64,000 nucleotides of DNA from Bolinopsis microptera (lineage: Eukaryota; Ctenophora; Tentaculata; Lobata; Bolinopsidae). A program made the translations under genes and the position numbers. The stretch is from positions 13,315,675-13,379,674 of the forward strand of contig NC_087076.1 of NCBI RefSeq assembly GCF_026151205.1, given 5' to 3'. This document shows, in pieces, positions 259 through 64,000 of the stretch (positions are counted from its first letter, which is position 1; each line of letters starts with the position of its first letter). Below the pieces are notes generated by a model. The model was not told the origin of the DNA. It did not search any database and saw only the letters and a program-made list of their open reading frames with translations.

Positions 259-3200
259 TGTTGCAAAAGACTACAACAGACTGCTCAAGTTTGGAGACAG
301 CTTGTACCGGTGCAAGCAGCTGAAGCGCGCGGCGCTGGGTCGCATGATGACCATCATGAAGCGTCAGAACAGTTCTCTTTTGTATCTGGAACAAGTTAGG
401 CAGCATCTCGGCAGATTACCTTCTATTGACCCCAATACTCGTACACTTCTGCTCTTCGGGTACACTTCTTTCTTGTTTATAATTATCACTTTGTTTCATA
501 TATTTTCTTCAAGTGTAGTGCATGTTTGCTATGGAGTGATATTCGTGTTTTTGTGAAATTGAGTATTCGAAAAGGATTGCGACGACTTCAATCGAATGAA
601 TAAGATATCGCCAATTAATGATTGTCATTAGTTTTATTGCAAAACGGACGGAAAACTTAATGTAATTAAAACTTTTAAAGTGTCTAAACGTTTAGTACAG
701 ACAGATCCGTCTAAAAAAATCGATCTGCTGACACTCCAAGCTTTCAGAGGTTTTTTGACGTTTTTGAGTCCCATTAGGTGCCCTTTATGGCTGACCAACT
801 TTTCCAAACTTTTCCACTTGTCTTAAGGCCACTTTTGCCACTTTACCACTTTTTACCACCTTTTTTGTTTGTCGAATATCTTTAGTTGTGAACATCGTAA
901 AAGGTTGCGGATCAATCGAGTGTGTTCATATTATCAGGAAGAAAAACTTTTGTTCAAACAATTTTTACGTCAGATAATAAGTTAATTGGATAATTATCAA
1001 TTAACTAATTAGCAAAATTCTAAAAAATTTTTATTGGCTAAAAATGATCGGAATAGCTTAAAACACGGAGAAAAGTAGTTTTTAGAAAAAATTTTAAAAT
1101 TTTTCACTTACATTTTTTTTTCGAGACTTACAAAAAATTTCGAAAATTAAAAAAATTTTTCCGCCAAAAGTGATCAAATCGCATGAAACACGGATAAAAA
1201 TGCCTTTCTAAAAAACGTAGTGAATTTTTCGTTTCAAGAAAACTTAAATCGCCAATATTTGTAGTTGGAGTTCAGTAAATCTCGGCAGATTTTAGTAATC
1301 AGGAATTAGTATTACTAAGTGAAGAGGTCTGAAACTGAAAAACGTTAACCATACGATCGCGCGGCGATATAAGAGTTTCATAAACTAATTTTCACAGAAA
1401 CTGCACCAATGGCACAGTCAAGATCGAAACGATAGCCTGCTGTACTGTCATTTTATTGATTTCAATGATGAATCAGTGGGGTTAAGATAATCACATTTGT
1501 AATAAAATATAAATAAAACATCTCTGTACCGTCAATTGTGCTAGTCTAAACCAGCCTACCTGTATTACCAGACCTCTTCTTTTCCTCGACAATCAAACCA
1601 AGTTGCTCATATCGCATTTGGTGAGTGATGTAAGTAGTAATACATATCGAGCTGTATTCAATCACAAAACGACACAATGCAATACGTGTATATTATATTA
1701 TGGCCCTTAATGAGGTATATGAAACGTTCTATATCGTACACTTCTCGTTTCTCCCGTGAGAGGCCCAGTATGGAGAGGTTTTACAGTTTATCACGAAAAC
1801 GTCTACTTGGCCTCATGGCTCAAAGAAGGCAAGAAAAGACCAGAAAGCTTTCAACTCGCTCTTTTCAATGCCCGTCCATCTGTCCCACATTAATCCTGAG
1901 CTGATCATCATAGCCCCGAATATCCTACGGGAAGAACCTGTATTTTTACCTCACGACGCGGACGTCCGGATTTCAAATCAACACCCTCAATAACATTAAC
2001 AATCCTTCCTGATCAGAATCTGTCTCTATTAGCAATTTCCAAAATATCCTGACTCTCGTGGAATATTTCACTGAATTAATTATTACCGGTTCTTTACTAC
2101 CCCTTGCCCGTCACTCGTATCTACATCTTACCCTTGCCAGTATGTTACCCTTGCTGATTTTACGTTTAGCCGACCCTGACATATGGGGGTGATTTGAGGT
2201 ATCCAGCATAGCAAATGAAGCGGTATGCAGAACAATACAAAACAAGTCACAGTTGATGTTGGAAGGTGTATTTACACTTGCTTTCTGGACCTGGCTGTTC
2301 CTTAGTTTCCTTGATCTGTTCTTACCTTCTTCGAACTGTAAATGAGCCATTTAATGAGGCCAAGTATACTTTTTCGTGATAAACTTTAAAACGTCTCTAT
2401 ACCGGGTTTCTCATTAAGAGCCATATAATATACACGTATTGTGTCGTATTCTGATTGAATACAGCTCGTTATGTATAAGTTTCAATACCTACAACACTAC
2501 TATATATATAGTTAGTGTTATATATAACAAATAATTTGAATGACAGGATGGATTACTGAGGGCACTGTGTTAAGGTGATTTGAATGACAGGATGGATTAC
2601 CGAGGGCACTGTGTTAAGGTGATTTAAGTGGGTCCCACTCCCCACCGACCATTCTTCTTTGTGTCATGAATACTTGCTTCATCATCTCCTTTTAATAAAA
2701 ATCACGGTGTCTTTATTGACTAAGCGCATTACTACTTACATCACCCACCAAATGCGATATGAGCAACTTGGTTTGATTGTCGAGGAAAAGAAGAGGTCTG
2801 GTAATACAGGTAGGCTGGTTTAGACTAGCACAATTGACGGTACAGAGATGTTTTATTTATATTTTATTACAAATGTGATTATCTTAACCCCACTGATTCA
2901 TCATTGAAATCAATAAAATGACAGTACAGCAGGCTATCGTTTCGATCTTGACTGTGCCATTGGTGCAGTTTCTGTGAAAATTAGTTTATGAAACTCTTAT
3001 ATCGCCGCGCGATCGTATGGTTAACGTTTTTCAGTTTCAGACCTCTTCACTTAGTAATACTAATTCCTGATTACTAAAATCTGCCGAGATTTACTGAACT
3101 CCAACTACAAATATTGGCGATTTAAGTTTTCTTGAAACGAAAAATTCACTACGTTTTTTAGAAAGGCATTTTTATCCGTGTTTCATGCGATTTGATCACT

Positions 3201-6200
3201 TTTGGCGGAAAAATTTTTTTAATTTTCGAAATTTTTTGTAAGTCTCGAAAAAAAAATGTAAGTGAAAAATTTTAAAATTTTTTCTAAAAACTACTTTTCT
3301 CCGTGTTTTAAGCTATTCCGATCATTTTTAGCCAATAAAAATTTTTTAGAATTTTGCTAATTAGTTAATTGATAATTATCCAATTAACTTATTATCTGAC
3401 GTAAAAATTGTTTGAACAAAAGTTTTTCTTCCTGATAATATGAACACACTCGATTGATCCGCAACCTTTTACGATGTTCACAACTAAAGATATTCGACAA
3501 ACAAAAAAGGTGGTAAAAAGTGGTAAAGTGGCAAAAAGTGGCCTTAAGACAAGTGGAAAAGTTTGGAAAAGTTGGTCAGCCATAAAGGGCACCTAATGGG
3601 ACTCAAAAACGTCAAAAAACCTCTGAAAGCTTGGAGTGTCAGCAGATCGATTTTTTTAGACGGATCTGTCTGTACTAGTTTGAGAATAATTCAAAACGAC
3701 GATTAAAAAGCTATTTAGTCAGAGTCGTAGTTTTATTCTCTTAGAAATGGGTCCTCTACAGGAACATTGCAGGAACAGTGCACATCTTTTCACATTTGTG
3801 CATTGTGCAATATATTACTTAGTGTAAGGAGTGTCCCTAAACTCCCTTTTAAAGTATGTGACTAAAACATTTAGGTGCCTAGTCGACTTGCAGTGTAGAT
3901 AAGTCAGATTATTCGTTGCAACCAGTAAACAACCGGGGGTAGGATTTGGCCGGGGCCGGGGCCGGGAATGTCCAAATTTTGCCGGGGCCGGGAATTGGCC
4001 GTTCTGGAATTTGGCCGGGGCCGGGGCCGGGCCGTGAATTTAATAAATCCACGGCCAAGTTAGAACTTTTCAGGACTTAGGATCTGAACTTATTTTTACA
4101 TGACATTATAATGTTCGTATCAATTGAACAGTTTAGAAGGTAATTAGATTTCATATATAATATTTTGGTAAAATAATTTTGTTCAGCTGAAACAGTAAAT
4201 AAAAGTTGGCACTCTGGACATCATCCTTTCAAAATTGAAAATCCATTTTAAGATTTATATGAAAGTTTTAGGCCGATTTCGATCAAAAATTCCCGGCCAA
4301 ATTCCCGGCAAAAATTGAAAATCGGCCGGGGCCGGGAAGAAATAGCTCCCCCGGCGCCGGGATTTCACGGCGCCGGGAATCCCGGTCGATTACTGGTTGC
4401 AACCTCCAAAATTACAAGAGCCATATCTAACAATACCCCACCCAGGTTCCCAAATTACAAGAGCCATATCTAACAATACCCCACCCAGGTTCCCAAATGT
4501 AGGAAAGTCCTCTTTTGTAAACCAGATAACACGCGCTAACGTGGAAGTACAGCCGTACGCGTTCACCACAAAGTCGCTCTACGTGGGACACACTGACTAT
4601 CAGTATTTGAGATGGCAGGTTATTGATACTCCTGGGATACTTGACAAGCCCCTGGAGGACAGGAATACTATTGAGATGCAGGTGAGTGCGGGAGTGCTGA
4701 ATAAGTGCTGAATTAGTGCTGAATTAATGCACTTTAAATAAGTGCTGAATTAGTGCACTTTAAATTAGTGCTGAATAAGTGCACTTTAAATTCTTACAAT
4801 TCTCATCCTTTATAAAATAGCACAGCTCTTAGTCCCAGACTCCCATGATCTTTGTAGGGGTCAACTTATTTCCAACGACGAGGCTGATATAAGAATGGCG
4901 TGTTTATTAAAGTATCTCATCGTACCTCTCCATACTAAACAAAATTCGTTCTTCAGGCCATCACTGCTCTAGCGCATCTACGCGCGTGCGTGGTGTGCGT
5001 CCTGGACATCAGCGAGCAATGTGGATACTCTCTGAAACAGCAGTGCGAACTGTTCGACAACATCAAGCCACTCTTCGCTAACAAGCCTATCATTGTAGCT
5101 CTCAACAAGATCGATGCTAGGAAACCTGAGGATCTCTCTCAAGAGGAAAAGGTTTGTTTAAATAATCTGATAAGGTTGGATAATTTTATGAATGTGCCAT
5201 GTGTGTGCAATTGATTGTACAGCTTATGTTTTTGACCTTTTTACTGAAAACTTATTTTATTTTAAATTTTATCGGATGTTTTCTGATTAGAATCGAGTCA
5301 CATACAACTTTTATCGAAAACTTAATCTTATCGGCTAATAGAATTTAATTCAATTATTACCTAGGTAATTTCACAAGGTAGTTAAATTAATCATATTAAA
5401 TTAATGCCTTTGAGCGTTCATTTTAATGTCCGTTCAAAATTATGTCCATTTACGAAATGTCCGGTCAAATAACGTCCGATTTCTGCTAGAACCGAGTCAC
5501 ATACAACTTTTATCGAAAACTTAATCTCATAGCTATAATAGAATTTAATTTAGTTATTTACCTGGGTATTGTTTGAATATATTAAGGAAATTACTATCAC
5601 AAACTATACTTCACCAAGAGATGTTATTTTATCACGTTATTATGAAGTTATAACAACCTCTTCTCTACAGAATCTACTAGAAGAGACGTTTAAGAAGAAC
5701 GCAAACGTGTTGGTTATCCCAATGTCCACTCTGACTCAGGAGGGAGTGTCTGAAGTACAGAACACAGCCTGTGATGCTCTTCTTGCTCACAGGATCGAGC
5801 AGAAGATGGCAGGAAACAAGGTCAATAATATATGTACCTTGTTTCAAACTCTTTTTTCTCAAAACTTACATTTTTTTTCAGTAAAGAAAAATTAATAATA
5901 CAGTTTTATGTGGTCTAGAGTAAACCAAGACTATCATTGCTGAAACTTATGTTTAAACAGGTTGAAAACATCCTGAACAGACTTCACGTAGCCGTCCCCA
6001 AAGCTTCCCAAGAAGTTCGAGCACCCCACATTCCGCAAGGAGTACTTGCCCGCCGTGTTGCCGGATACGTTAAGCCTGCTGAGATACGCAAGTTGGAGCG
6101 AGACATGGAACTGGAGTTGGGAGATGATTATATTCTCGACCTTAAGAAACACTACGATCTACCTAATCCTGATGATAAGTATGTGAAGCCGCCTTTAAAT

Positions 6201-19930: not shown

Positions 19931-22034
19931 ATGTTACTACCTTTAGTTTCCCTCTTAGTCATAGGATCGTTTCCTGCTACTGTAGAGGCAGATGAGCACA
20001 GAGCATTAAGATTTGGTCAAAGCACTGCCGACTATATAGAGTGGTCTCCGAACATGGCCCCTTTTACAAGGCAGTTCTCTGTCTGTACTTGGCTTAAGAA
20101 GAGACATCAGTCATCAAATCCAATAGTTGTGAACTACCATCCTTACAGTCACGGTATGCTATTTGGTGATAACGGTGTTTATAACCACGTGGTAGGTTCT
20201 GGTATTTCTCTGCAGAGCGAGTACAACGTGCCTGATGGAGAATGGTTTCACGTCTGCTGGTTATGGAGTTACTCTAGTTACACCCTCACCGTCTACCTGA
20301 ACGGAGAGATTATAGGATCTACAGCTACTAATGAGAAGGAGCTGAGGACAGGAGGAACAATGTGTCTTGGTAACTATGCTGGGGTTAAGGTTTCTGGTCA
20401 CACTTTCGGTGGTGACTTGTTCAAGTTGAACCTATACAGTAGAGTTTTAACAGACACTGAAATCCGAAACATGGCCTCTGATATATGTTCTAACGAGGAG
20501 GAGAGTCTAAACTCAATAAGAAGTCTAAGGTGGGAAAGTATAATGTTACAGGAGAGAAGTGGCTCTGTGACTGAGATAACTGGTTGTCCTTCTCCTGAAG
20601 AGATTGAAGCTGGAAAACGGGCTAAAATGCTGAGGCTCATTGATGAAAGACTGGAGACATTTGAGAGTAGGTTACAGAACACCGAGCAGGAGTTGGCAAG
20701 AACCAAAACTAATTTCATACAATCTGATAAAAAGTTAAAGAATGTTACCGCATCCCTCACAGTAACTCAGGAAAAGCTAAAGAACTCTGAGCAAGAGCTA
20801 ATATAACAGAGACTAAGTCTAATCTGAATCAGCAATTAGAAAATGTTATCACCTCCCTGACAGGTACCCAGAATAAGCTTAACGACACTGAGCAAGAGCT
20901 AGCAGAGACTAAGTCTACTCTGAATCAACGACTAAATCAAACCGAGAATAAGTTGGAAAATGTAACCACATCTCTCAAAACCACCCAAGGAAAGCTAAAG
21001 AACTCTGAGCAAGAGCTAACAGAGACTAAGTCTAATCTGAATCAGCAATTAGAAAATGTTATCACCTCCCTGACAGGTACCCAGAATAAGCTTAACGACA
21101 CTGAGCAAGAGCTAGCCGAGACTAAGTCTACTCTGGATCAACGACTAAATCAAACCGAGAGTAAGTTGGAAAATGTAACCACTTCCCTCACAAGCACCCA
21201 AAATAAGCTTAACAACACAGAACAAGAGCTAGCCGAGACTAAATCTACACTGAATCAGCGTGTTAACCAAACTGAAAAGAATTTGCAAGCTGTAACAAAG
21301 TCCCTTACCACCACCCAGGTCGAGCTAAATGCTACAAGACAAGAATTGGCAGGAGCAAGAAATTCTCTCGGAATGCTAACCACATCCTTCATCACCACCC
21401 AGGAAATGCTAAAGAACTCTGAGCAAGAGCTAGCAGAGACGAAGTCTACCCTGAAGGTATTTGAAGAGAAGTTAGGAAGTTTTAACTTCTCCCTCACAAG
21501 CACGCAAAAAGAGATGTCCAACACGCAACTTGAGCTTACAGCGACAAAAAATAATCTCACACAGCAATTAGAAAGTGTCGCCGTGTCCCTGAACCATACC
21601 CAAGAGGAGCTGGATGCAGCTACAAAGAACAAAGTCCGCAGCAAGTGGGACGTGCTTTTCTCGGACAGGTTTTTCAACAAGCAACTTACTATGGAGATGT
21701 CTCAAGAACTCAAATCAGCATGGGATATTCTAGGTAATTTCTCTCTTTTAATTAGGTTGTCTAGTAATCTTATGAAATGTTTCGTTTTCGGAGAATAAAT
21801 ATTTTTGCATGGATTGCGTAATGTCTTAATATCACGGCATAAATTTAAGACCTTTTTAAATAACTCCTTTTTTGTCTAGTAGTAAGTAATAGAAATAACA
21901 CTGTTTTAAGTTTAACATCTTTCCTTTCAGATCTGTTTTTAGGAGCAAACATAACCGAACCAGTTATCGAACACTTAAAGCAACAGCACGAGCCTAGAGA
22001 AATGGTCTGTCCGGAAACTGACAGTATTCTTTGA
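19931..22034 (+). pseudogene. Pentraxin/LamG-like secreted coiled-coil protein, copy A, interrupted by a 5-nt insertion
   Basis: The first exon is 19931-21733 and the last is 21931-22034 (donor GTAATT, acceptor TTTCAG). The protein opens with a signal peptide (MLLPLVSLLVIGSFPATVEA), then a ConA-like domain of about 190 residues. That domain has the pentraxin-style core FSVCTWLKK, WFHVCWLWS, VYLNGEIIGS and GGTMCLGNY. Pentraxins carry HxCx[ST]Wx[ST]; here Leu replaces the Ser/Thr. More than 300 residues of coiled coil follow, built on LxxTQxKLxNxEQELAETKSxL units, with N-glycosylation sequons (NVT, NQT, NNT, NDT) at regular steps. Five extra bases (ATATA, 20801-20805) create a stop and a frameshift, after which the frame is open again to the last exon. 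Whether this is a true mutation or an error is undecided. About 630 codons in all. Confidence 0.85.
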
Positions 22035-22863
22035 ATGCTCCAGAAGTGATATTTTTAGAATAGCTGAACTTGTCTTAACATTTTCATTTTGAATGGACCT
22101 TTCTTTACTCAACTTTTAAATTGACCTTGGATACATCTCTTTTTAGCAAAATCTTAATCGTATAGTAGTGACGGATTCGCGTTCGATAGTTCTACTTTAT
22201 TAATATTATCATACAATCATTCAAGCTACGCTAGAGTTTTATGAGCATGTACTATAAATACAAATAATCATAAACAATATTGATTATTAATGAATTTAGA
22301 ACCTATGCGATAGTCGTTAATTGTAAAATATGAGGCATTGGTAATGGTGCATTTCTGAGTTCGACCCAATGTACATTATTCGCTAATCAAAAAGTCGTAA
22401 TATTGAATATAATCTTATTTTGACAATGTAAACTCGGCAATAGTCTACTGTACTCAACACGGAGTCTCAGCAAGTATCCGAGACATAGAATTCACTCTAT
22501 AGCTTGATCCTGCTGGGTAATGTGTTGTTACTTGTTCGTGACCAGATTCCTACTCACTCCCACACTGTCGATAAAACCTTAGTAATCAGCATTTTCACCC
22601 ACTACACTGAATCTGTACATCGGATAACCCTCCAATAAACCTGCTTCAACCCGAACTTTGCTGTCACGTGACCTCCTAGTTGCGCTGTTATTGGATCCCA
22701 GATGAAACTGTAGTAATTCTTATCATGAGCCAAGAACAGTTCTAGAAAAATAGAGCCCCTCGGTTCTTAAAACATAATACGTTTCTATGCAAACTCCGCT
22801 TTTTATTTTTTGTTTGTCGAAGTGTTCCCAGTCTATAAAACACACCACAAAATACCTAGGAAA
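22035..22863 (+). promoter_or_regulatory. Intergenic and upstream region of pentraxin-like copy B
   Basis: The first part is the 3' flank of copy A, including the unoccupied insertion site at about 22055-22062. From 22463 it is the conserved upstream block shared with the other copies, ending in TTTTATTTTTTGTTTGTCGAAG just before the start codon. No transcription start can be fixed from sequence alone. Confidence 0.5.
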
Positions 22864-23934
22864 ATGTTACTTCCTTATCTCCTCCTTTTAGTCATAGGAT
22901 CGTTTCCTGCTACTGTAGAGGCAAATAAGCACAGAGCATTAAGATTTGGTCAAAGCATTGCCGACTATATAGAGTGGTCTCCGAACATGGCCCCTTTTAC
23001 AAGGCAGTTCTCTGTCTGTACTTGGCTTAAGAAGAAACATCAGTCATCACATTCAATGGTTGTGAACTACGAGCCTTATAGTTACGGGATGATATTAGGT
23101 GACAATGGTGTTTATAACCACGTGATACTTGCTAGTATTAATCTGAAGAGCGAGTACAACGTGCCTGATGGAGAATGGTTTCACGTCTGCTGGTTGTGGA
23201 GTGCCTCTAGTTACACCCTCACAGTCTACCTGAACGGAGAGATTATAGGATCTACAACTACTCGTCATATTGAGTTGAGAACAGGAGGAACAATGTGTCT
23301 TGGTAACTATGGTCCGAGTAAGAGTTCTATTTACACTTTCGGTGGTGACTTGTTCAAGTTGAACCTATACAGTAGAGTTTTAACCGACACTGAAATCCGA
23401 AACATGGCCTCTGATATATGTTCTAACGAGGAGGAGAGTCTAAATTCAATAAGAAGTCTAAGGTGGGAAGATATAATATTACAGGAGAGAAGTGGCTCTG
23501 TGACTGAGGTAACAACTGGTTGCTCTCCTGGAGAGATTGAGGCTAGAAGAAGACTGGAGACATTTGAGAGTAGGTTACAGAACACCGAGCAGGAGTTGGC
23601 AAGAACCAAGACTAATTTGATACAATCTGATAAAAAGTTAGAGAATGTTACTGCATCCCTCACAGCAACTCAGGAAAAGCTAAAGAACTCTGAGCAAGAG
23701 CTAGCAGAGACTAAGTCTAATCTGAATCAGCGATTAGAAAATGTTATCACCTCCCTCACAAGTACCCAGAATAAGCTTAACGACACTGAGCAAGATCTAG
23801 CAGAGACTAAGTGTACTCTGAATCAACGACTAAATCAAACCGAGAATAAGTTGGAAAATGTAACCACATCTCTCAAAACCATCCAAGAAAAGCTAAAGAA
23901 CTCTGAGCAAGAGCTAGCAGAGACAAAGTCATAA
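22864..23934 (+). CDS. Pentraxin/LamG-like secreted coiled-coil protein, copy B, shortened
   Basis: A single open frame of 356 residues begins at the ATG aligned with copies A and C. It has a signal peptide (MLLPYLLLLVIGSFPATVEA), the same ConA/pentraxin-like domain (FSVCTWLKKKHQSS, WFHVCWLWSASS, GGTMCLGNYG) and about 130 residues of the coiled coil. The coding sequence jumps from a GAGACAAAGTC coiled-coil repeat straight into ATAACCGAACCAGTTATC, which in copy A lies inside the last exon. The remaining coiled coil, the intron and the start of the last exon are therefore deleted. The junction is out of frame and stops at once. The product could still be secreted as a shorter protein, or the copy may be decaying. 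Confidence 0.85.
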   Translation: MLLPYLLLLVIGSFPATVEANKHRALRFGQSIADYIEWSPNMAPFTRQFSVCTWLKKKHQSSHSMVVNYEPYSYGMILGDNGVYNHVILASINLKSEYNVPDGEWFHVCWLWSASSYTLTVYLNGEIIGSTTTRHIELRTGGTMCLGNYGPSKSSIYTFGGDLFKLNLYSRVLTDTEIRNMASDICSNEEESLNSIRSLRWEDIILQERSGSVTEVTTGCSPGEIEARRRLETFESRLQNTEQELARTKTNLIQSDKKLENVTASLTATQEKLKNSEQELAETKSNLNQRLENVITSLTSTQNKLNDTEQDLAETKCTLNQRLNQTENKLENVTTSLKTIQEKLKNSEQELAETKS

Positions 23935-24031
23935 CCGAACCAGTTATCAAACACTTAAAGCAACAGCACGAGCCTAGAGAAATGGTCTGCCCGGAAACTG
24001 AGAATATTCTTTAAATGCTTCAGAAGTGATA

Positions 24032-24583
24032 TTTTTTCCCGATCCATGACTCAAGTGCCGAAGGCACAAAAGAGTCAAGGACAAGGGTTAGCGATCGAGG
24101 TTTTTTTTGGGATATGGTAGCTTTGCGACCGTACCTGCGTGCGAGCGTGCGTGTCTGCGTACGTTTCGCCCACGTGTCTGCCTGCGCAAAGTTATTTTGC
24201 GCGAAAATCTGAATTAAACAATTGTTGGCGCGCGGTGCTGAAATGTTCAAGTACATTGTTAATTTCATCATGTACGCATCCCGCTAGGGACTAATTGATA
24301 GCATATTATTATTATTTTGAGTTAGTATTACTATTTTGCACAGATCCGTGTCAGGTTGCATAAACAATAAACATATGGTTACATAGAAATATACACGATT
24401 TTCAAATTAAATATGGAATTATATCAACTGGGCGGCGCTCGGCCTGTCGCTTCGCCATATCTGCATGCTTATAAACAGTAAAGACTGGGGTCCACAGGTG
24501 GTATGGAATATGATCAAATACTCCATCACGGATCGGGAAATTGAGCGGCCATCCACAAAAGAAAAGCGGCCGCATTTCTTGTT
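24032..24583. mobile_element. 552-bp interspersed element, copy 2 (3' flank of pentraxin-like copy B)
   Basis: It is identical to 11952-12503. The paralogous flank of copy A (GAAGTGATATTTTTAGAA, near 22045) is the empty site. Here the element is inserted within the T run, giving GATATTTTTT on the left and GTTTTTAGAA on the right, so about five T appear on each side. It lacks the ACAATCGGGG right end seen beside copy 1, so either the right end was lost or that sequence is not part of the element. Confidence 0.85.
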
Positions 24584-25399
24584 TTTAGAAACTGAACCTA
24601 TCTTAACATTTTCATTTTGAATGGACCTTTCTTTACTCAACTTTTTAATTGACCTTGGATATATCTCTTTTTAGCAAAATCTTAATCGTATAGTAGTGAC
24701 GGATTCGCGTTCGATAGTTCTACTTTATTAATATTATTATACAATCATTCAAGCTACGCTAGAGTTCTATGAACATTGAACATGTACTATAAATACAAAT
24801 AATCATAAATAACAATAATTATTAATGAATTTAGAGCTTATACGATGGTCGTAAATTGTAAAATATGAGGCATTGGTAATGGTGCATTTCTAAGTTCGAC
24901 CCAATGTAAATTATTCGCCAATCAAAAAGCCGTAATATTGAATATGCTCTTATTTTGACAATTTAAACTCGGCAATAGTCTACTGTACTCAACACATGAC
25001 TACATACGGAGTCTCAGCAAGTATCCGAGACATAGAATTCCCTCTATAGCTTGATCCTGCTGGGTACTGTGTTGTTACTTGTTCGTGACCAGATTCCTAC
25101 TCACTCCCACACTGTCGATAAAACCTTAGTAATCAGCACTGCCACCCACTGCACTGAAGCTGTCAATCGGATAACCCTCCAATAAACCTGCTTCAACCCA
25201 AACTTTGCTGTCACGTGACCTCCCAGTTGCACTGTTATTGGATTCCAGATGAAACTGTAGTAATTCTTATCATGAGCCAAGAACAGTTCTAGAAAAAATA
25301 GCGCCCCTCGGTTTTTAAAGCATAATACGTTTATATGCAGACTCCGCTTTTTATTTTTTGTTTGTCGAAGTGTTCCCGGTCTACAAAACACCCAGGAAA
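24584..25399 (+). promoter_or_regulatory. Intergenic and upstream region of pentraxin-like copy C
   Basis: It contains the remainder of the copy B 3' flank, then the conserved upstream block from about 25010 with CACGTGACC near 25212 and TTTTTATTTTTTGTTTGTCG near 25348. Its similarity to the region before copy B argues for shared control. No other gene was seen. Confidence 0.5.
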
Positions 25400-26176
25400 A
25401 TGTTACTACCGTTAGCTCTCTTCTTAGTCATAGGATCGTTTCCTGCTACTGTAGAGGCGAATAAGCACAGAGCATTAAGATTTGGTCAAAGCACTGGTGA
25501 CTATATAGAGTGGTCTCCGAACATGGCCCCTTTTACAAGGCAGTTCTCTGTCTGTACGTGGTTAAAGAGGAGACATCAGTCATCATATCCAATGGTTGTA
25601 AACTACTATCCTTACGAGTACGGGATGATATTAGGTGATAACGGTTATTATAACCTAGTGGTAGGTTCTAGTCTGCATCTGCAGAGCGAGTACAACGTGC
25701 CTGATGGAGAATGGTTTCACATCTGCTGGTTGTGGAGTGCCTCTAGTTACACCACTACAGTATACCTGAACGGAGGGATTATAGGATCTACAGCTACTAA
25801 TGAGAGGGAGCTGAGAACAGGAGGAACAATGTGTCTTGGTAACTATGCTGGGGGTAAGAGTTCTCAATATACTTTCGGTGGTGACTTGTTCAAGTTGAAC
25901 CTATACAGTAGAGTTTTAACCGACACTGAAATCCGAAACATGGCCTCTGATATGTGTTCTAACGGGGAGGAGAGTCTAAACTCAATAAGAAGTCTAAGGT
26001 GGGAAAGTATAATGTTACAGGAGAGAAGTGGCTCTGTGACTGAGATAACTGGATGTTCTCCTGAAGAGATTGAAGCTGGAAGACGGACTAAAATGCTGAA
26101 GATCGTTGAAGAAAGACTTGAGACATTTGAGAGTAGGTTACAGAACACCGAGCAGGAGTTGGCAAGAACAAAGTGA
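25400..26176 (+). CDS. Pentraxin/LamG-like secreted protein, copy C, truncated after the lectin-like domain
   Basis: An open frame of 258 residues starts at the conserved ATG. It has the signal peptide MLLPLALFLVIGSFPATVEA, then the ConA/pentraxin-like domain (FSVCTWLKRRHQSS, WFHICWLWSASS, VYLNGGIIGS, GGTMCLGNYAGG) and the first turns of the coiled coil (ETFESRLQNTEQELARTK). It stops within a few bases of the left border of the 6-kb repeat block at 26185, so the insertion or rearrangement that brought the block removed the coiled-coil half. The upstream 380 bp match copies A and B and the domain is intact, so expression of a domain-only form is possible. Confidence 0.85.
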   Translation: MLLPLALFLVIGSFPATVEANKHRALRFGQSTGDYIEWSPNMAPFTRQFSVCTWLKRRHQSSYPMVVNYYPYEYGMILGDNGYYNLVVGSSLHLQSEYNVPDGEWFHICWLWSASSYTTTVYLNGGIIGSTATNERELRTGGTMCLGNYAGGKSSQYTFGGDLFKLNLYSRVLTDTEIRNMASDMCSNGEESLNSIRSLRWESIMLQERSGSVTEITGCSPEEIEAGRRTKMLKIVEERLETFESRLQNTEQELARTK

Positions 26177-26184
26177 TTGTCCGT

Positions 26185-29100
26185 CAAATGATTTGTGTCG
26201 AGTAGTGTTGAATACTCATATTAAACATGATTAATTGATTTAATTTTAGGAATTGGTAATAACTATCCTTTGACCAAGTTTAATAGTTTAATGAGAGCAC
26301 CCCAGCAGCTGGGCCGCGCGGCGGCTTTGAATGTAGCGGCCTACAAGCTTGAAGCTAGGCAGCTGCAGAAAGGCCCGCGCGCGTTCACAGTCAGCGTACC
26401 GGCTTTCGTTTTGAATTTTACAAAAACAAAGGCTACTTTTAATGATTATTAATGGAATTATCGGTATATTATTTATTATTCAATAAGTATGATTCTTCTG
26501 TGGAAAATAAAATTGTATTTTTACTTAAATGTATTTACTTAAATCCATTTGGCTAGTTTTAGTTATTTTAAGGATCAACTCTGTCCGAACTAACGTGCTC
26601 TAGACATCAAGTATGACACGTAACCAAAGTTTGAAAAAAGAACTTCAACTGTCAAACTGGAGTTTTGAAATCTCCGATCTCAAGCAGCGATCCTTAACAA
26701 GCGAGAAATCTATCGTTTGGTTTGTTTTTCCCGGGATTGTCTCGTGGTTGTTCAATAAGGTGTGAATGTAATTGTGAAGATAGGTAAATAATAAAAATTA
26801 AATTAGCATTTTACAAATGGTACACAGAACCTGGTCCAAATCTAATTGCCACCGCATTGTTGCGAGAAGCATTTTGGCTGGCGTCGAAGCACCCAGTTAG
26901 AGTGCATCGCGCAACAACAAGTATAAAAATTTTTGAAAGTAAAGATTTTATAGTTTTTCTTATGCTGCTGATTACGATCACGTCAACGAGGAAGGATTAA
27001 TATTAACAATCAAATTAGTCTACCAACCTCTAATGATACTTTACCACCCTCGCGGTAACATTAACCTAACTTTTAACGTGTATTATATTATATACTGCTT
27101 TTGGACACGAAGGGAAACAACATAACATAAGGCGCGTTAAAATTATTTATTATATAGAAGTGGTTGAAAGTATTAAAATATAATCATGTCATTTTTCTAA
27201 CAGTATACAGGTAATTTCAGCATTGTACTTGTCTAGCTATTGTCTTAATAATAAGGATAGGACACATTTCCGAAAATGAATAACCAAATTCCAATAGATA
27301 CAAAATTAAATCTACAAAATCACATCACAACAAAAATTGTATCACTTTTGACACCCACGTCGTTTCACTGTAGTAGAGTTTCTATCGATACAGGGGGAAA
27401 TCGCGCATTCGAGTGCGGCGGGTCATACAACGTTATGAAATAAGCTCTTACAGGCTTGTATATAGGAAGTTTACCAACCTACCAGGACGAGCGCGATTGG
27501 ACACGTCCGACGTCAATAGTTGGAACATGATAATTTTGACGAGTATCACCCGTTAATTAGTAAAAAAATTTTTTAGTAAAACAATTTAAATTTTGGTATT
27601 TATTAATAACAATCAAAACATATCAATATCAAAAAAGAGATCCGCTCGGTTGGTTGACTGCCTCAGTATGTGTGAATAATTTAAGCTTGAGAGGTGCCCA
27701 GCGCATTACAGAACATATGCGCGAATCACATGATCACGAGGGACACTTTTAGCGCCAATGTAATGTAAACTTTCTAGAAATCGTACATCACTACGAGTTA
27801 CTCATGCTTTTAATTTATAGAGTGCGGATTGTCATGTATTTCATTCATTCATACTTATTCGGTTTAGAGAATCTGTATATTTAAGAGCTCACTATTTCGT
27901 TTGAACTAAGAAACAAACGTAAAAAAGGAACAATATATACCGACGACAATACCAAGGACCCGAGTGCGCATTGACTTTTCCGGATCCGTTTTTTACCCGA
28001 ATGGCTTATCCTCCAGTTACTCATGCTGCATGAATAGTCTGATAATAGTTTGTTTTTATCTCTATGCAAGCATTCTGTAAAGTTGATTGACGTATTTATA
28101 ATAGAAGATCCAGCCAACCTCCGCATTACACTCTTTTGTATGCCAGGTTCGTTTATAAAATCTAATCATATAATAAGAATTATCCCAATATTCTAAGATG
28201 AACTGTATATCTAGCCTCAACGTTATTAAAATCCTAATGGATGAATTAATCAAGTAATGTTTCCCTTCCAACACTACTAAACAACAAACAAAATTCTTGC
28301 TCACCAGTGTGACGCGAATTCGTAGGGGCATGCGTTGTCAGATAACTCCACCCCCGACGACAGCGTCGAGAAATTTATCAAATATGATGCATTTGCGCCA
28401 TACTGACACATTTTATATTTATATTTTATTACAAAGCAAATGGTTCCCTTTTGCCAGCCTTATATTAGTCCAAGTACTGCCCGTTCTGGCTCATGCAGAA
28501 CATGCGCCAACTAAAATTGTGTGTTATATGCCAACATGGAATTTAATTGTATCACGTCGTAACCCCTATCAATGCACGAATTGTTTTTGTGGCGAAGTCA
28601 CAAATAACGAAGGCTCGCTGGCACCGGCCGAACTCGTGCGCGCAGGGCTACAAAATGCAACAAAGATTATGGGACTATAGATTTATGAAAATTTAAACCT
28701 TCAAATTCAATCCATTAATGAAATATTTTTAAAATAACTTTCGCCTCCTGCTTAAGAAATTTATTTTATTTTTGATAAGTATAGGCTCGGCGCTGACATA
28801 TAATTAAGTGCTAGCACGCCGCGCTTATTATGATAGAAATTTATGATTGAGTAATCAATGTTCGAGTAATAGAGTTTGTAGGTTTATAACCTGCCAGATG
28901 CGCGCCCCGATCGAGTTGAAACAAATATTTTTTAATGAGTATCACCCGATAATATATAGTAAAAAAGTATTTTTACATAATATATCTAATTTTCATGAGT
29001 TTCTTAGCGATGTTTTAAGTTTGACTAGGTTATTATGATATTAAATATTTTGGTTGCAATATGGCAATATAATCTTAAATTATTTTTACTTGAAAAGTTT

Positions 29101-59030: not shown

Positions 59031-59335
59031 ATCTTGTGAAAATCAAAAATATATTCTAAGTTATTCACAAAAACACTCGATTTTCGAACTTTTTATTTGG
59101 AACAGATTTGTCGAAAGTCCTTCTGCAAAATTCTTCCAGGGGTTATTATACCGCAGCAGCGACAACATTTTAATATGCAACATTTTCATGGCAGTTGTGC
59201 AGAGCGACATTTTAGCTCGTATAGTACATTATGGCGCGCGCGCGCAGCGCAGTGTTCGATCATATGTATCATGCCGGAACAAGGAAAAACGCCATCTTTA
59301 AGGACGCGAAGATCAGAGAGTTAGGACTCAACTCC

Positions 59336-60320
59336 TCGAGACTCTACTCCTTCGAGACTCTGCTCCTTCGAGACCCTGCTCCTTCAAGACTCTACTCCTT
59401 CGAGACTCTACTCCTTCGAAACTCTACTCCTTCGAGACTCTGCTCCTTCGAGACCCTGCTCCTTCAAGACTCTACTCCTTCGAGACTCTACTCCTTCGAG
59501 ACTCTACTCATTCGAGACTCTAATCCTTCGAGACTCTGCTCCTTCGAGACTCTACTCATTCGAGACTCTAATCCTTCGAGACTCTGCTCCTTCGAGACTC
59601 TACTTCTTCGAGACTCCACTCCTTCGAGACTCTACTCCTTCGAGACTCTACTTCTTCGAGACCCTGCTCATTCAAGACTCTACTCCTTCGAGACCCTGCT
59701 CCTTCAAGACTCTACTCCTTCGAGACTCTGCTCCTTCAGGACTCTACTCCTTCGAGACTCTACTCCTTCAGGACTCTACTCCTTCGAGACTCTACTCCTT
59801 CGAGACTCTACTCCTTCGAGACTCTGCTTCTTCAAGACTCTACTCCTTCGAGACTCTACTTCTTCGAGACTCTGCTCCTTCGAGACTCTACTTCTTCGAG
59901 ACTGATCTACTCCTTCGAGACTCTGCTCCTTCGAGACCCTGCTCCTTCAAGACTCTACTCCTTCGAGACTCTACTTCTTCGAGACTCTACTCCTTCGAGA
60001 CTCTACTTCTTCGAGACCCTGCTCCTTCGAGACTCTACTCCTTCGAGACTCTGCTCCTTCGAGACTCTACTTCTTCGAGACTGATCTACTCCTTCGAGAC
60101 TCTGCTCCTTCGAGACCCTGCTCCTTCAAGACTCTACTCCTTCGAGACTCTACTCCTTCGAGACTCTACTCATTCGAGACTCTAATCCTTCGAGACTCTG
60201 CTCCTTCGAGACTCTACTTCTTCGAGACTCCACTCCTTCGAGACTCTACTCCTTCGAGACTCTACTTCTTCGAGACTCTACTCCTTTGAGACTCTGCTCC
60301 TTCGAGACTCTACTCCTCGA
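59336..60320. repeat. 16-bp minisatellite (TACTCCTTCGAGACTC)
   Basis: About 60 head-to-tail units of CTACTCCTTCGAGACT with point variants (CTGCTCC, TTCTTCG, CTCATTC, CAAGACT). Longer blocks of several hundred bases recur at 59335-59900 and 59900-60300, showing higher-order duplication. Because three units equal 48 bases, all frames on the plus strand read the same 16-residue repeat, and a 224-residue open frame arises without implying a gene. Confidence 0.95.
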
Positions 60321-61561: not shown

Positions 61562-64000
61562 TGGATTACACAGGATTACACAGGATTACACAGGATTAAA
61601 ATTAAATTATAGATCCATTATCATGGACCGTCATAATTGTTTACAGAAGTTAATGAAAACAATCATCTTTGCTTGAAGTCAGGGCCAGGGTTATCCTTAA
61701 GTCTTAATTATGACTAATTCGCGAAGTTCTCACCAAATTGATAGTAAAATTGTTTAAGTTTCGTGCATTTGAATTACGCTGACGCATATCTTCGGTGAAG
61801 CTATTTCGCTCTTCGGAGCAGCGAAGGAAATAAGTGCACACACAGTTGACAGCATAGGAGCGCCTTTCTTGAAATTGAATATACTGTGGAGTGTTTGGTT
61901 GAATATCAAGTGAGCGGTGGCAGTGAATATGGAGGCTCTGGTGATTTTGAGGAATTACAGTTGAGTAAGGAGACAAAATTTCCATGAGATGATCTTTGAG
62001 ATTTGTTTCATTGATATTGCTGGAGTCGGTGATTTCATTGCTTATTTCAATGATTGGCATTTGAGAAAGATTTTTGACTAATTTAGACCTCTGTTTTGAA
62101 TACAAGTCACATATGTAAAGAACATGCGACTCGTCTTCGATGGTCTCAACGCCCATACTTGATTGGCACCAACCACATAGTCTTTGCTCACGGGGTGTGT
62201 TGGAGTATCTGCCTCTTTCAATATGGAGATCATGGGCGCTGATTCTAAGTTTTGTGGTGCTGTAACGACGAGAAAAGCCTTTGCATAAGTATAAGTAGGG
62301 CTCTCGGTTGAAGGTGTGTTTGATTGAGTGATAGAATGAGAGTTTAGAAGAAGTAGATTTTTGATATTGCCAACATTTTTTGAATTGATTGGTTAGAGCT
62401 TCGATGATTTTAGGAATTCTATACTTTTTGCTGCATAGTGAGATAGTGGTTTGATGGATTGACTAAATTTTGACTGATTTATGAGGGAGTCTTTTAATAA
62501 TTTGTGATCACTTACAGGGTTGGGCGCGGCTTTGTTAGCTGCATTTGTATTGAGAATTCGGTGCGCAGTTACGTGATCTAGTTTGTAAATTTCATCTAGT
62601 TCAAGGAGTGGTTTTATGTATCGATACCAAGGTAAGTTTAGTGATTTTTGTTCTTTTACGGCTGCAGTGACAAACGAATTCGACTTTGATTTTGTATTTA
62701 GCCTTTTGAAGTAATTTAACGTTAAGCGAATTGATTGATAAATCAGAGGAATTCTTCCTGTTTCTCCCCAAACACCTACATTTGATGCTTTACGATGGAC
62801 TCCCAATACCCATTTTAGGAATGAAATATGCACTCTTTCTTGCAGAGAGGCGCTGATTTTTTAAAGTAAGTTAGTAGCGGTTGCTTCTGTCGAGTTAATC
62901 GTTTTGCAAAGAGATTTATTGATCGTACTAGTGGGTGTCCATATCGGAGCACCATATAATAAAATGGGCTTGATGAGAGAGTCGAAAAGTGTAAGGAGTG
63001 CTTTAAAAGATAACTTTGAACGCATGACAACCCTTTTCAGGCCAAAAAATGCACGCATTGCTTTGGTTTTAAGGTTTTGTTGAGCGATCTGTACTTGACC
63101 CGATTGATGAAGTTCAAATCCAAGTTAACAATAACTGTCAACAATTTCAAGATTAGATCCGTTGAGTGTAAATTTGATGTTTTGTATGTCCTGTTTTAAC
63201 GTTTTCTTACCAAAGATGACTGCTTGAGTTTTGAGTTCATTGATTTCAATGCCCCACTCCTTACAAAAATTACCGAGAATATTAAGTTGCTTTTGAGTGG
63301 TTTCCTGGTCGAGTGAAAGGAGTATAAGGTCATCCGCCCACAGTAGGTGGCTAATAGTCATATTTGAAAGTACGGGGCAATTTGGAAAATCTAGGAGGCA
63401 GGACATATCACTAAGAAAAACTTTAAAAAGATCAGGTGAGAGTGGGTGACCTTGTTCTGTACCTTTACGTATCTGAAAGCGTTTACTGAGGTGACCAGAT
63501 AATTTTATGTAAGCGTACGAATTTGAGTACATATTTTTGAGGACATTGTAGAAGTTTCCAGTTATGCCATTTTTTGCGAGTTTGAGGAAAAGGGCTTGAC
63601 GGCAGACTGAGTCGAATGCTTTTTTAAAATCAACAAATACTGCATAATATACAGGTTTCCCCAAAAGTTTATATTTTGAAGGTATAGTTTTCATGGTTAG
63701 TATGTGATCGTATGTTTGAGCTTTCTTTGTGAAGCCTAGTTGGTTAGGTGGATCAGGGCAGTTTTCAGAGCGGAAGTGGATAAGTCGTTCTGAGAGAATA
63801 GTTGAGAATAGTTTTCCTATGACACTGCTGACAGCAACTGCACGGTAGTTGTCAGGATCTGATTTATTTCCCTTTTTATGAAGTGGAGATATAATGCTGA
63901 CGTTCCAGGGATAAATTCCTTGTGAGAAGCAGGCGTTGAAGAGGTTCAACATAATCAATTTATGATTGGTATCTAGAGATTTTATAATTTCGTTATTAAT
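61562..64000 (-). mobile_element. Non-LTR retrotransposon, 3' half, runs off the right edge
   Basis: The minus-strand polymerase region and 3' tail of a LINE-type element. The 3' end is probably at 61562-61597, where a 10-bp unit (CAGGATTACA) is repeated three to four times; several LINE clades end in such short tandem repeats. The 5' part, including the endonuclease, would lie beyond 64000. Confidence 0.75.
61704..64000 (-). pseudogene. Reverse transcriptase ORF of the non-LTR element, with stop and frameshifts
   Basis: The frame entering from the right edge shows reverse-transcriptase blocks in order: NYRAVAVSSVIGKLFSTIL, AVFVDFKKAFDSV (motif A), GTEQGHPLSPDLF (motif B), HLLWADDLILLSL (motif C, with W where most elements have Y or F), GIEINELKTQAVIF and LEIVDSYC. 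A TAA at about 63129 stands where a Tyr codon is expected before LGFELH. The frame then continues to 62861, shifts near 62850, and shifts again near 62420. The end carries the zinc-knuckle-like signature LRISAHDLHIERGRY, PREQRLCGWC and EDESHVLYICDLYSKQR found after the polymerase in many LINEs. It is inactive as read. Confidence 0.85.

Follow-up and report, generated by a model that had tools for sequence, protein, structure and literature searches.

Introduction

Short pentraxins (CRP, SAP and the Limulus SAP-like protein) are not known to have a coil. ADGRG4 and PAPP-A carry a pentraxin/LamG-like head on their N-terminal side and continue into receptor or protease parts, and the collectins, the ficolins and the FREPs of snails, the last a diversified family, place a multivalent lectin on an oligomerising stalk. 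Long pentraxins (PTX3, NP1/NP2/NPR and PTX4) join a pentraxin jelly roll and a coiled coil in one chain, with the pentraxin domain at the C-terminal end according to the accessible part of PMC10598717. Here we describe a gene family of the ctenophore Bolinopsis microptera in which this order is reversed. Three of its members (copies A, B and C) stand in tandem in a stretch of 64 000 nucleotides (contig NC_087076.1, positions 13 315 675 to 13 379 674; hereafter, the window). An earlier reading of the window from its letters alone (the sequence-only reading) had recognised here a tandem family of secreted proteins whose signal peptide leads into a ConA-like domain and then into a coiled coil, the reverse of the order in neuronal pentraxins. 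We find that order in the three copies and in 25 relatives; the cnidarian setting that had been assumed is rejected, the genome being that of a ctenophore. Two of its glutamate-receptor fragments match ctenophore receptors best: both hit ML032222a of Mnemiopsis at 2e-26 and then 4zdm of Pleurobrachia (2e-19 and 9e-24); the strongest match to any other receptor was 7e-16 for one fragment, and for the other there was none up to 1e-20.

The family shares with short pentraxins the fold and a conserved cysteine pair; it differs from them in having a coil and, in all but 4 of 41 family rows, in lacking the Ca2+-binding E/D-Q-D loop, which the window copies lack too. ADGRG4 and PAPP-A are both among the fold matches of the head, which in the Bolinopsis proteins leads into a putatively secreted coil instead. 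Collectins, ficolins and FREPs embody a similar idea, but their heads (C-type lectin, fibrinogen) are unrelated and their stalks differ. The likeness to long pentraxins is closer: the jelly roll and the coiled coil are in one chain, the head matches PTX3 and NP1 best and the window copies, like PTX3, lack the Ca2+ loop. The coil, however, comes after the head, forms a repeat array and carries sequons at fixed heptad positions, and there is an extra conserved C-terminal module. There are also at least about 100 places for such genes in the ctenophore genome, compared with the five long pentraxins named in the accessible part of PMC7461825. Searches of the open-licence literature listed no described family with a signal-ConA/pentraxin-coiled coil layout; the sequence-only reading had known of none either.

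Our preferred explanation, to which we give a probability of roughly 55%, is that these genes form a large diversified ctenophore family of secreted, multimeric ‘inverted long pentraxins’. An intact member would consist of a signal peptide, a pentraxin-type jelly-roll head, a tandem-repeat coiled coil and the C-terminal module; in the gene, an intron then separates the module from a short last exon. Chains would assemble in parallel via the coil and the C-terminal module, presenting several heads per rod, and N-glycans at outward heptad positions would sheathe the rod, making it soluble, extended and protease-resistant. The heads would bind ligands via two segments that appear to match the pentraxin ligand/Ca2+ site. 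These segments, differing by clade, would owe their diversity to duplication of the genes and to fast amino-acid replacement, and would let the family recognise many different targets, glycans or surfaces, be they of microbes, of prey or of self. If true, this would be a case of a pentraxin domain used in the order opposite to that of long pentraxins. The rods would also suggest a natural rule for designing sugar-coated coiled coils, with Leu in position a, the sequon Asn in b and Ser/Thr in d.

Size and composition of the family

The window genes belong to a ctenophore family of at least about 100 gene copies, with putatively secreted heads on a predicted glycosylated rod. A search of the Bolinopsis genome with copy B gave 118 matches, merged into 111 places with broken copies included; this number is a lower bound, the best 114 of 606 candidates having been scored. 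For comparison, the same genome gave 25 C-type lectin matches. Members lying within 50 kb of one another form 19 clusters, 18 of which are confined to a single strand. The term ‘tandem family’ was therefore correct for the three copies of the window and too small for what they belong to.

Forty-six genes were tabulated as 47 rows of open reading frames (ORFs); one locus with a stop in its head (L015) was left out. One open frame runs from the head through the coil to the C-terminal motif in 25 rows, and among the 22 others are genes that are cut short, interrupted or of another build (in L022 there are Sushi repeats, and the tail of L056 looks transmembrane by eye). An upstream in-frame Met followed by a hydrophobic stretch is present in 43 of the 47 rows, although this is a weak test since the Met was chosen for hydrophobicity. 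The conserved cysteine pair (C52 and C109 in copy numbering) is invariant in 41 family rows. A genome search with PF00354 yielded 144 matches, all over the cut-off, that of copy C among them.

The genome also has pentraxins of a more canonical kind (C13:9667643, C13:7515491, C1:146781 and C5:10530540; PF00354 E ~1e-33 to 1e-36). These four have a second pentraxin match in an open frame of the same length (530–582 codons).

Predicted fold of the head

The AlphaFold2 model of copy C (41 family rows) is a jelly roll of mean predicted local distance difference test score (pLDDT) 92.1 and predicted template modelling score 0.82, with strands through residue 198 and then a helix at residues 202–238. 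When this model was compared with the PDB by Foldseek, ranks 1–21 were all pentraxin domains (PTX3, NP1, NP2, Limulus SAP-like, zebrafish, CRP and SAP) or, in one case, the PTX-like domain of ADGRG4, with E from 4e-12 to 2e-8. A profile of the head searched against PDB sequences found PTX3 at 2.8e-19. The whole-protein model of one relative (L032; 21 rows) has the same head, mostly above a pLDDT of 84, then two long helices and two short C-terminal helices. The pentraxin/LamG-like jelly roll proposed from the letters is thus what structure prediction gives. Foldseek also matched clostridial neurotoxin binding domains; kinship with these was set aside, and the match was taken as a shared jelly-roll fold only.

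Two pentraxin hallmarks are nevertheless incomplete. The signature, which we take to be H-x-C-x-[ST]-W-x-[ST], is not found in its exact form in A, B and C, which have HVCWLWS or HICWLWS instead; it is exact in 9 of 41 family rows. The Ca2+-binding loop, presumably E/D-Q-D, is absent from A, B and C (copy B is gapped against the EQD of NP1) and has been lost in the window clade; it occurs in 4 of 41 rows, namely L028, L031 and L063 by pattern and L061 by direct reading of the loop, the pattern hit of the latter lying elsewhere. PTX3, an accepted pentraxin, is also without the metal site according to the available part of PMC10598717. By its predicted fold the head is a pentraxin-type domain, and we put the inverted-order protein with the pentraxins; because its head-coil order is opposite to that of long pentraxins, it is not classed as one of them.

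The coiled coil and its sequons

Periodicity was analysed in 27 tails, after leaving out tails of fewer than 90 residues, with fewer than four sequons or without the boundary motif, as well as L022 and L056. The set includes copy B (L009); A and C are too short or sequon-poor. In all 27 tails the hydrophobic heptad power exceeded that of 300 out of 300 shuffles. Proline is absent from 25 of them and occurs once in each of the other two. Of 28 tails compared with themselves, 25 repeat best at a period divisible by 7, with no more than 26–35% self-identity at the best period in several cases; the three others (71, 71 and 67) all belong to the window clade. The repeat-built coiled coil of the sequence-only reading is therefore supported. 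In L019 and L024 the tails consist, by eye, mostly of 7-residue units of the TKQDLA/IKQDLA type, near-perfect heptads repeated without a sequon.

The residues L, I, V, M, F and Y alone set the heptad register, on which Asn and Thr thus had no influence. Sequon Asn residues (n = 288 in the 27 tails) were distributed over positions a to g as 1, 216, 33, 0, 33, 3 and 2, against a background of ~14% each, although repeats and paralogues are not independent and such counts overstate the evidence. In other words, 282 of the 288 are at b, c or e and none is at d. When the tails were split into nine groups, hand-assigned from the tree like the other clades used here, the number of sequon Asn at a and d together was 0 in eight groups and 1 in the window clade; the commonest position was b in seven groups and e in two. 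The usual arrangement is Asn at b with Thr/Ser at d. Sequons are concentrated in the tails: 340 were counted in 42 tails versus 7 in the corresponding 42 heads, 35 of which have none (ORFs shorter than 250 residues were dropped, which kept 42 of the 47 rows). The long, regular, sequon-rich coil that had been proposed is thus present in intact relatives, with strong enrichment and fixed placement, and is not intact in the window copies from which it was proposed.

The C-terminal module and the last exon

A 45-residue module query found 110 places in the genome (E ≤ 0.05). In 90 of these, a pentraxin/LamG head on the same strand ends no more than 3.5 kb upstream, whereas shifts of 50–200 kb left 0–2 such pairs and no module had an opposite-strand head within 3.5 kb. 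Fifteen modules also have a head downstream, as in tandem arrays. The head list used for this comparison comprised 209 merged pentraxin/LamG places, partly hand-filtered, of which 126 have no listed module.

No Pfam family covering the module was among the matches listed for the seven relatives scanned, and no PDB sequence matched it up to E = 1. NCBIfam matches were far under their cut-offs and were rejected as coiled-coil noise. When 50 loci were searched for the last exon, 14 of those that are not in the C5 clade matched it (E < 0.01). Extra copies of a related short exon are present in L032, L051 and L053; those of L032 (FKGTEITSGLIAHFKETH..., at 2911–3963) suggest duplication of the C-terminal exon.

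The same module also occurs at C7:5347447–5347551 (−), inside an extraordinarily long stop-free ORF reported as 22,926 codons. The pentraxin/LamG, copy-B-like and C-type lectin matches listed all lie outside the span of this ORF.

The three window copies

The window copies stand in tandem, as the sequence-only reading had stated; they are ORFs on the same strand (n = 3) with protein identities of ~82–86%. Each begins with a hydrophobic stretch ending in ATVEA (a putative signal peptide, called by eye), continues into a ConA/LamG domain and ends in a coiled-coil or helical tail. Laminin_G_3 (PF13385) matches A, B and C with E-values of 2.3e-16, 1.3e-14 and 4e-16 (60.7, 55.0 and 60.0 bits, all above the Pfam curated cut-off of 27.6). 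The Pentaxin model (PF00354) gives 18.9, 23.5 and 28.4 bits against a curated cut-off of 25, which C alone passes. The features of the locus are as follows.

19931–20806 (+): copy A ORF, with a signal-like start (~19931–19990), a pentraxin/LamG-type head and the start of the coil; TAA at 20804–20806
20801–20806 (+): site of a 5-base insertion in copy A, which shifts the frame and brings the TAA (by-eye comparison with sister repeat units, e.g. near 21020)
20809–21630 (+): rest of the copy A coil repeats, in a frame other than that of the head; sequons seen in the translation
21631–21733 (+): conserved C-terminal module of copy A, SKWDVLFSDRFFNKQLTMEMSQELKSAWDILG, with a GT donor at its end (module match C5:13337305–13337409)
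21734–21930 (+): putative GT-AG intron of 197 bases in copy A, read from the sequence and from the frame of the next exon
21931–22034 (+): last exon of copy A, DLFLGANITEPVIEHLKQQHEPREMVCPETDSIL followed by a stop; conserved across the C5 subfamily and more weakly so in 14 other loci
22064–22750 (+): spacer between A and B, duplicated as 24592–25297 between B and C (92–96% identity in three pieces)
22864–23934 (+): copy B ORF, 356 amino acids, with a signal-like start, a head and a coil of ~130 residues with 4 sequons; ends where the coil joins the last exon out of frame
23932–24036 (+): remains of the copy B last exon, out of frame (23930–24036 is 94% identical to 21950–22056)
24040–24590 (no strand assigned): dispersed repeat downstream of copy B (at least 40 genome matches including itself, 92–100% identical)
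25400–26176 (+): copy C ORF, 258 amino acids, with a signal-like start, a head and a short helical stub; no sequons
26174–26560 (no strand assigned): dispersed repeat starting at or before the copy C stop codon (at least 41 genome matches including itself); the remaining coil is missing here, with no coil match beyond

Since the spacer is duplicated between the copies, the repeat unit includes upstream DNA. The window copies are family members with open heads and damaged or lost tails. In copy A, a frameshift (the 5-base insertion relative to sister repeats) leaves the coil, the module, which reads SKWDVLF...SAWDILG, and the last exon to continue in another frame. In copy B, an apparent deletion has fused the coil directly to the out-of-frame remains of the last exon, and copy C is left with a short helix, its frame ending at or slightly beyond the start of the dispersed repeat. 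Several GT-AG pairs around the copy A stop would give an open frame; splicing of this kind was not adopted, as relatives are uninterrupted there.

The window copies may be heading towards pseudogenes, or they may make short, stalkless, soluble heads. That they (and not the family as a whole) are decaying tandem duplicates without a function of their own, having lost their tails to frameshift, deletion and repeat insertion, seems to us an even bet. The three tails are each damaged by a different kind of lesion. C5 also carries seven further copies of this clade in a cluster 200 kb away (L010–L013, L015, L016 and L018), of which just two, L010 and L012, are open as far as the C-terminal motif; in L011 and L013 the frame closes short of the module, in L016 and L018 the head itself is broken, and in L015 it contains a stop. 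On the other hand, the heads of A, B and C are all open from the start codon, copy C ends past the predicted folded head and helix, and in the pooled clade the head outside its variable segments evolves with a ratio of nonsynonymous to synonymous rates (ω) of ~0.37–0.39. The frameshift of copy A could also be an assembly error. The accessible part of PMC10232365 describes a Bolinopsis assembly made with wtdbg from PacBio reads and polished with Illumina reads, which bears on copy A only if it is the same assembly.

In L016 (C5:13574569–13576235) the head is interrupted after residue 89, where the frame enters what looks by eye like the end of a retrotransposon protein.

Sequence change in the head

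The heads of A, B and C diverge most after FSVCTW (residues ~61–97), the region singled out by the sequence-only reading, and again at ~145–159. In eight clade-1 heads (including that of L015, with its stop), pooled Nei–Gojobori ω was 1.20 in segments delimited by eye (58–101 and 125–161) and 0.37 in the remaining head. By likelihood, ω outside the segments was 0.39, which rejects 1 (2ΔlnL = 13.7). Within the segments it was 1.35, which is not significantly greater than 1 (2ΔlnL = 1.9) and may reflect relaxed constraint. Parsimony counts in clade 1 were 106.3 nonsynonymous and 22.7 synonymous changes in residues 61–97 and 145–159, compared with 62.5 and 34.5 elsewhere (Fisher P = 0.003).

These last two segments were picked from the visible variation of clade 1 and then applied unchanged to five other clades; one sequence (L034) was dropped from the codon analysis because its translation differed from its alignment row. 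A nonsynonymous excess was found in four of the five (odds ratios 3.6, P = 2e-8; 4.3, P = 0.001; 3.9, P = 1e-5; 2.5, P = 0.013) and was not replicated in clade 6 (odds ratio 1.1, P = 1.0). In a scan without preset segments, the number of permutations out of 300 that scored as high was 0 in clade 2 and 17 in clade 4 (fairly significant), but the same scan was not significant in clades 1, 3, 5 and 6 (45, 44, 113 and 250 of 300). Alignment to NP1 and PTX3, together with the residue positions that we take to form the ligand and Ca2+ site of CRP, places the two variable segments on the pentraxin ligand face, and they appear to match the ligand and Ca2+ site.

The sequence-only reading had suspected diversification of the binding face, and in most clades change is indeed concentrated where that face is predicted to be. 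An alternative, which we regard as a serious though lesser possibility, is that the family duplicates fast and its variable segments are simply loops on which constraint is relaxed, telling nothing about ligands. An ω of 1.2–1.35 that is not significantly above 1, the variation of these segments in length between subfamilies and the failure of the free scan in four of six clades would all fit such a view. Against it, the same two segments stand out in four of the five clades from which they were not chosen, and they coincide with the putative ligand site.

Possible roles and alternative explanations

Besides the non-significant ω, the exception of clade 6 and the free scan, several observations weigh against the explanation in terms of diversified inverted pentraxins. 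The open frame reaches the C-terminal motif in only 25 of the 46 tabulated genes, and none of the three window copies has the long stalk and the C-terminal module in one frame. Their ORFs contain 1 (A), 4 (B) and 0 (C) sequons where shuffled tails lead one to expect 0.7, 3.2 and 0.2, so that neither enrichment nor regular spacing was found in A, B and C; in copy B the sequons are at 261, 306, 324 and 332, with spacings of 45, 18 and 8. In the L032 model, the coil taken as a monomer is mostly at pLDDT 50–70. In 229 of 295 sequons the third residue (Thr/Ser) occupies the core position d, which would weaken packing; glycosylation would thus come at the price of a polar core residue. Finally, 20 of the 110 modules have no listed upstream head.

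Among the possible roles (immune, prey-related, adhesive or gametic) we rank recognition of foreign surfaces first, because change is concentrated in the putative ligand face while the remaining head is constrained. Less likely than not, but a real possibility, is that the family is an independent counterpart to FREPs or to the soluble pattern-recognition molecules of vertebrates. A survey of ctenophore immune repertoires (PMC11797021) covered 20 Pfam domains; pentraxin and LamG are not among the names in the figure legend of its accessible part, where a text search also failed to find ‘pentraxin’, ‘laminin’ or ‘LamG’. The same part gives 42 C-type lectin and 55 SRCR genes for Mnemiopsis.

It is conceivable, but in our opinion unlikely, that the proteins are an adhesive or mucus scaffold (e.g. 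colloblast glue or surface mucus) with an attaching head, a cohesive sugar-coated rod and a cross-linking module, head diversification being incidental. Rods that are glycosylated, rich in repeats and variable in length are well suited to the proteins of glues and mucus. The concentration of change in the ligand face argues against such a role. The accessible part of PMC6278862 lists, for a gene of the tentacle set (ML056959a), hits to a C-type lectin venom protein, a silk factor and a eukaryotic initiation factor, so that lectin-plus-repetitive designs may occur in tentacles; the same part reports colloblast candidates without low-complexity enrichment. One module for which no pentraxin head is listed (C8:10740845, −) lies 6.2 kb downstream of a C-type lectin match on the same strand (C8:10747091, −), possibly in a shared gene, but none of the 25 C-type lectin matches is in the same open frame as a module (coordinates compared by eye). 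C-type lectin heads on the same stalk were accordingly rejected, the C8 pair being the one possible case.

Least probable, and improbable in absolute terms, is that these are extracellular-matrix or gamete/egg-coat recognition proteins that diversify through mating or self-recognition and not through microbes or prey: LamG and pentraxin folds do serve in matrix and fertilisation proteins and rapid change of the binding face would fit, but nothing found here speaks positively for it, another extracellular domain was found only in L022 (Sushi) among the seven relatives scanned with Pfam, and L056 has its transmembrane-like tail.

Other features of the window

A reverse transcriptase fragment lies at 63128–63958 (−; PF00078, E = 2.5e-28). 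An open repeat array with units like SRLYSFETLLLRDPAP occupies 59231–59902 (+) and has no convincing family match. A short ORF at 28297–28680 (+), without a Pfam match, contains KIVCYMPTWNLI... and resembles, by eye, the start of a GH18 chitinase-like protein.

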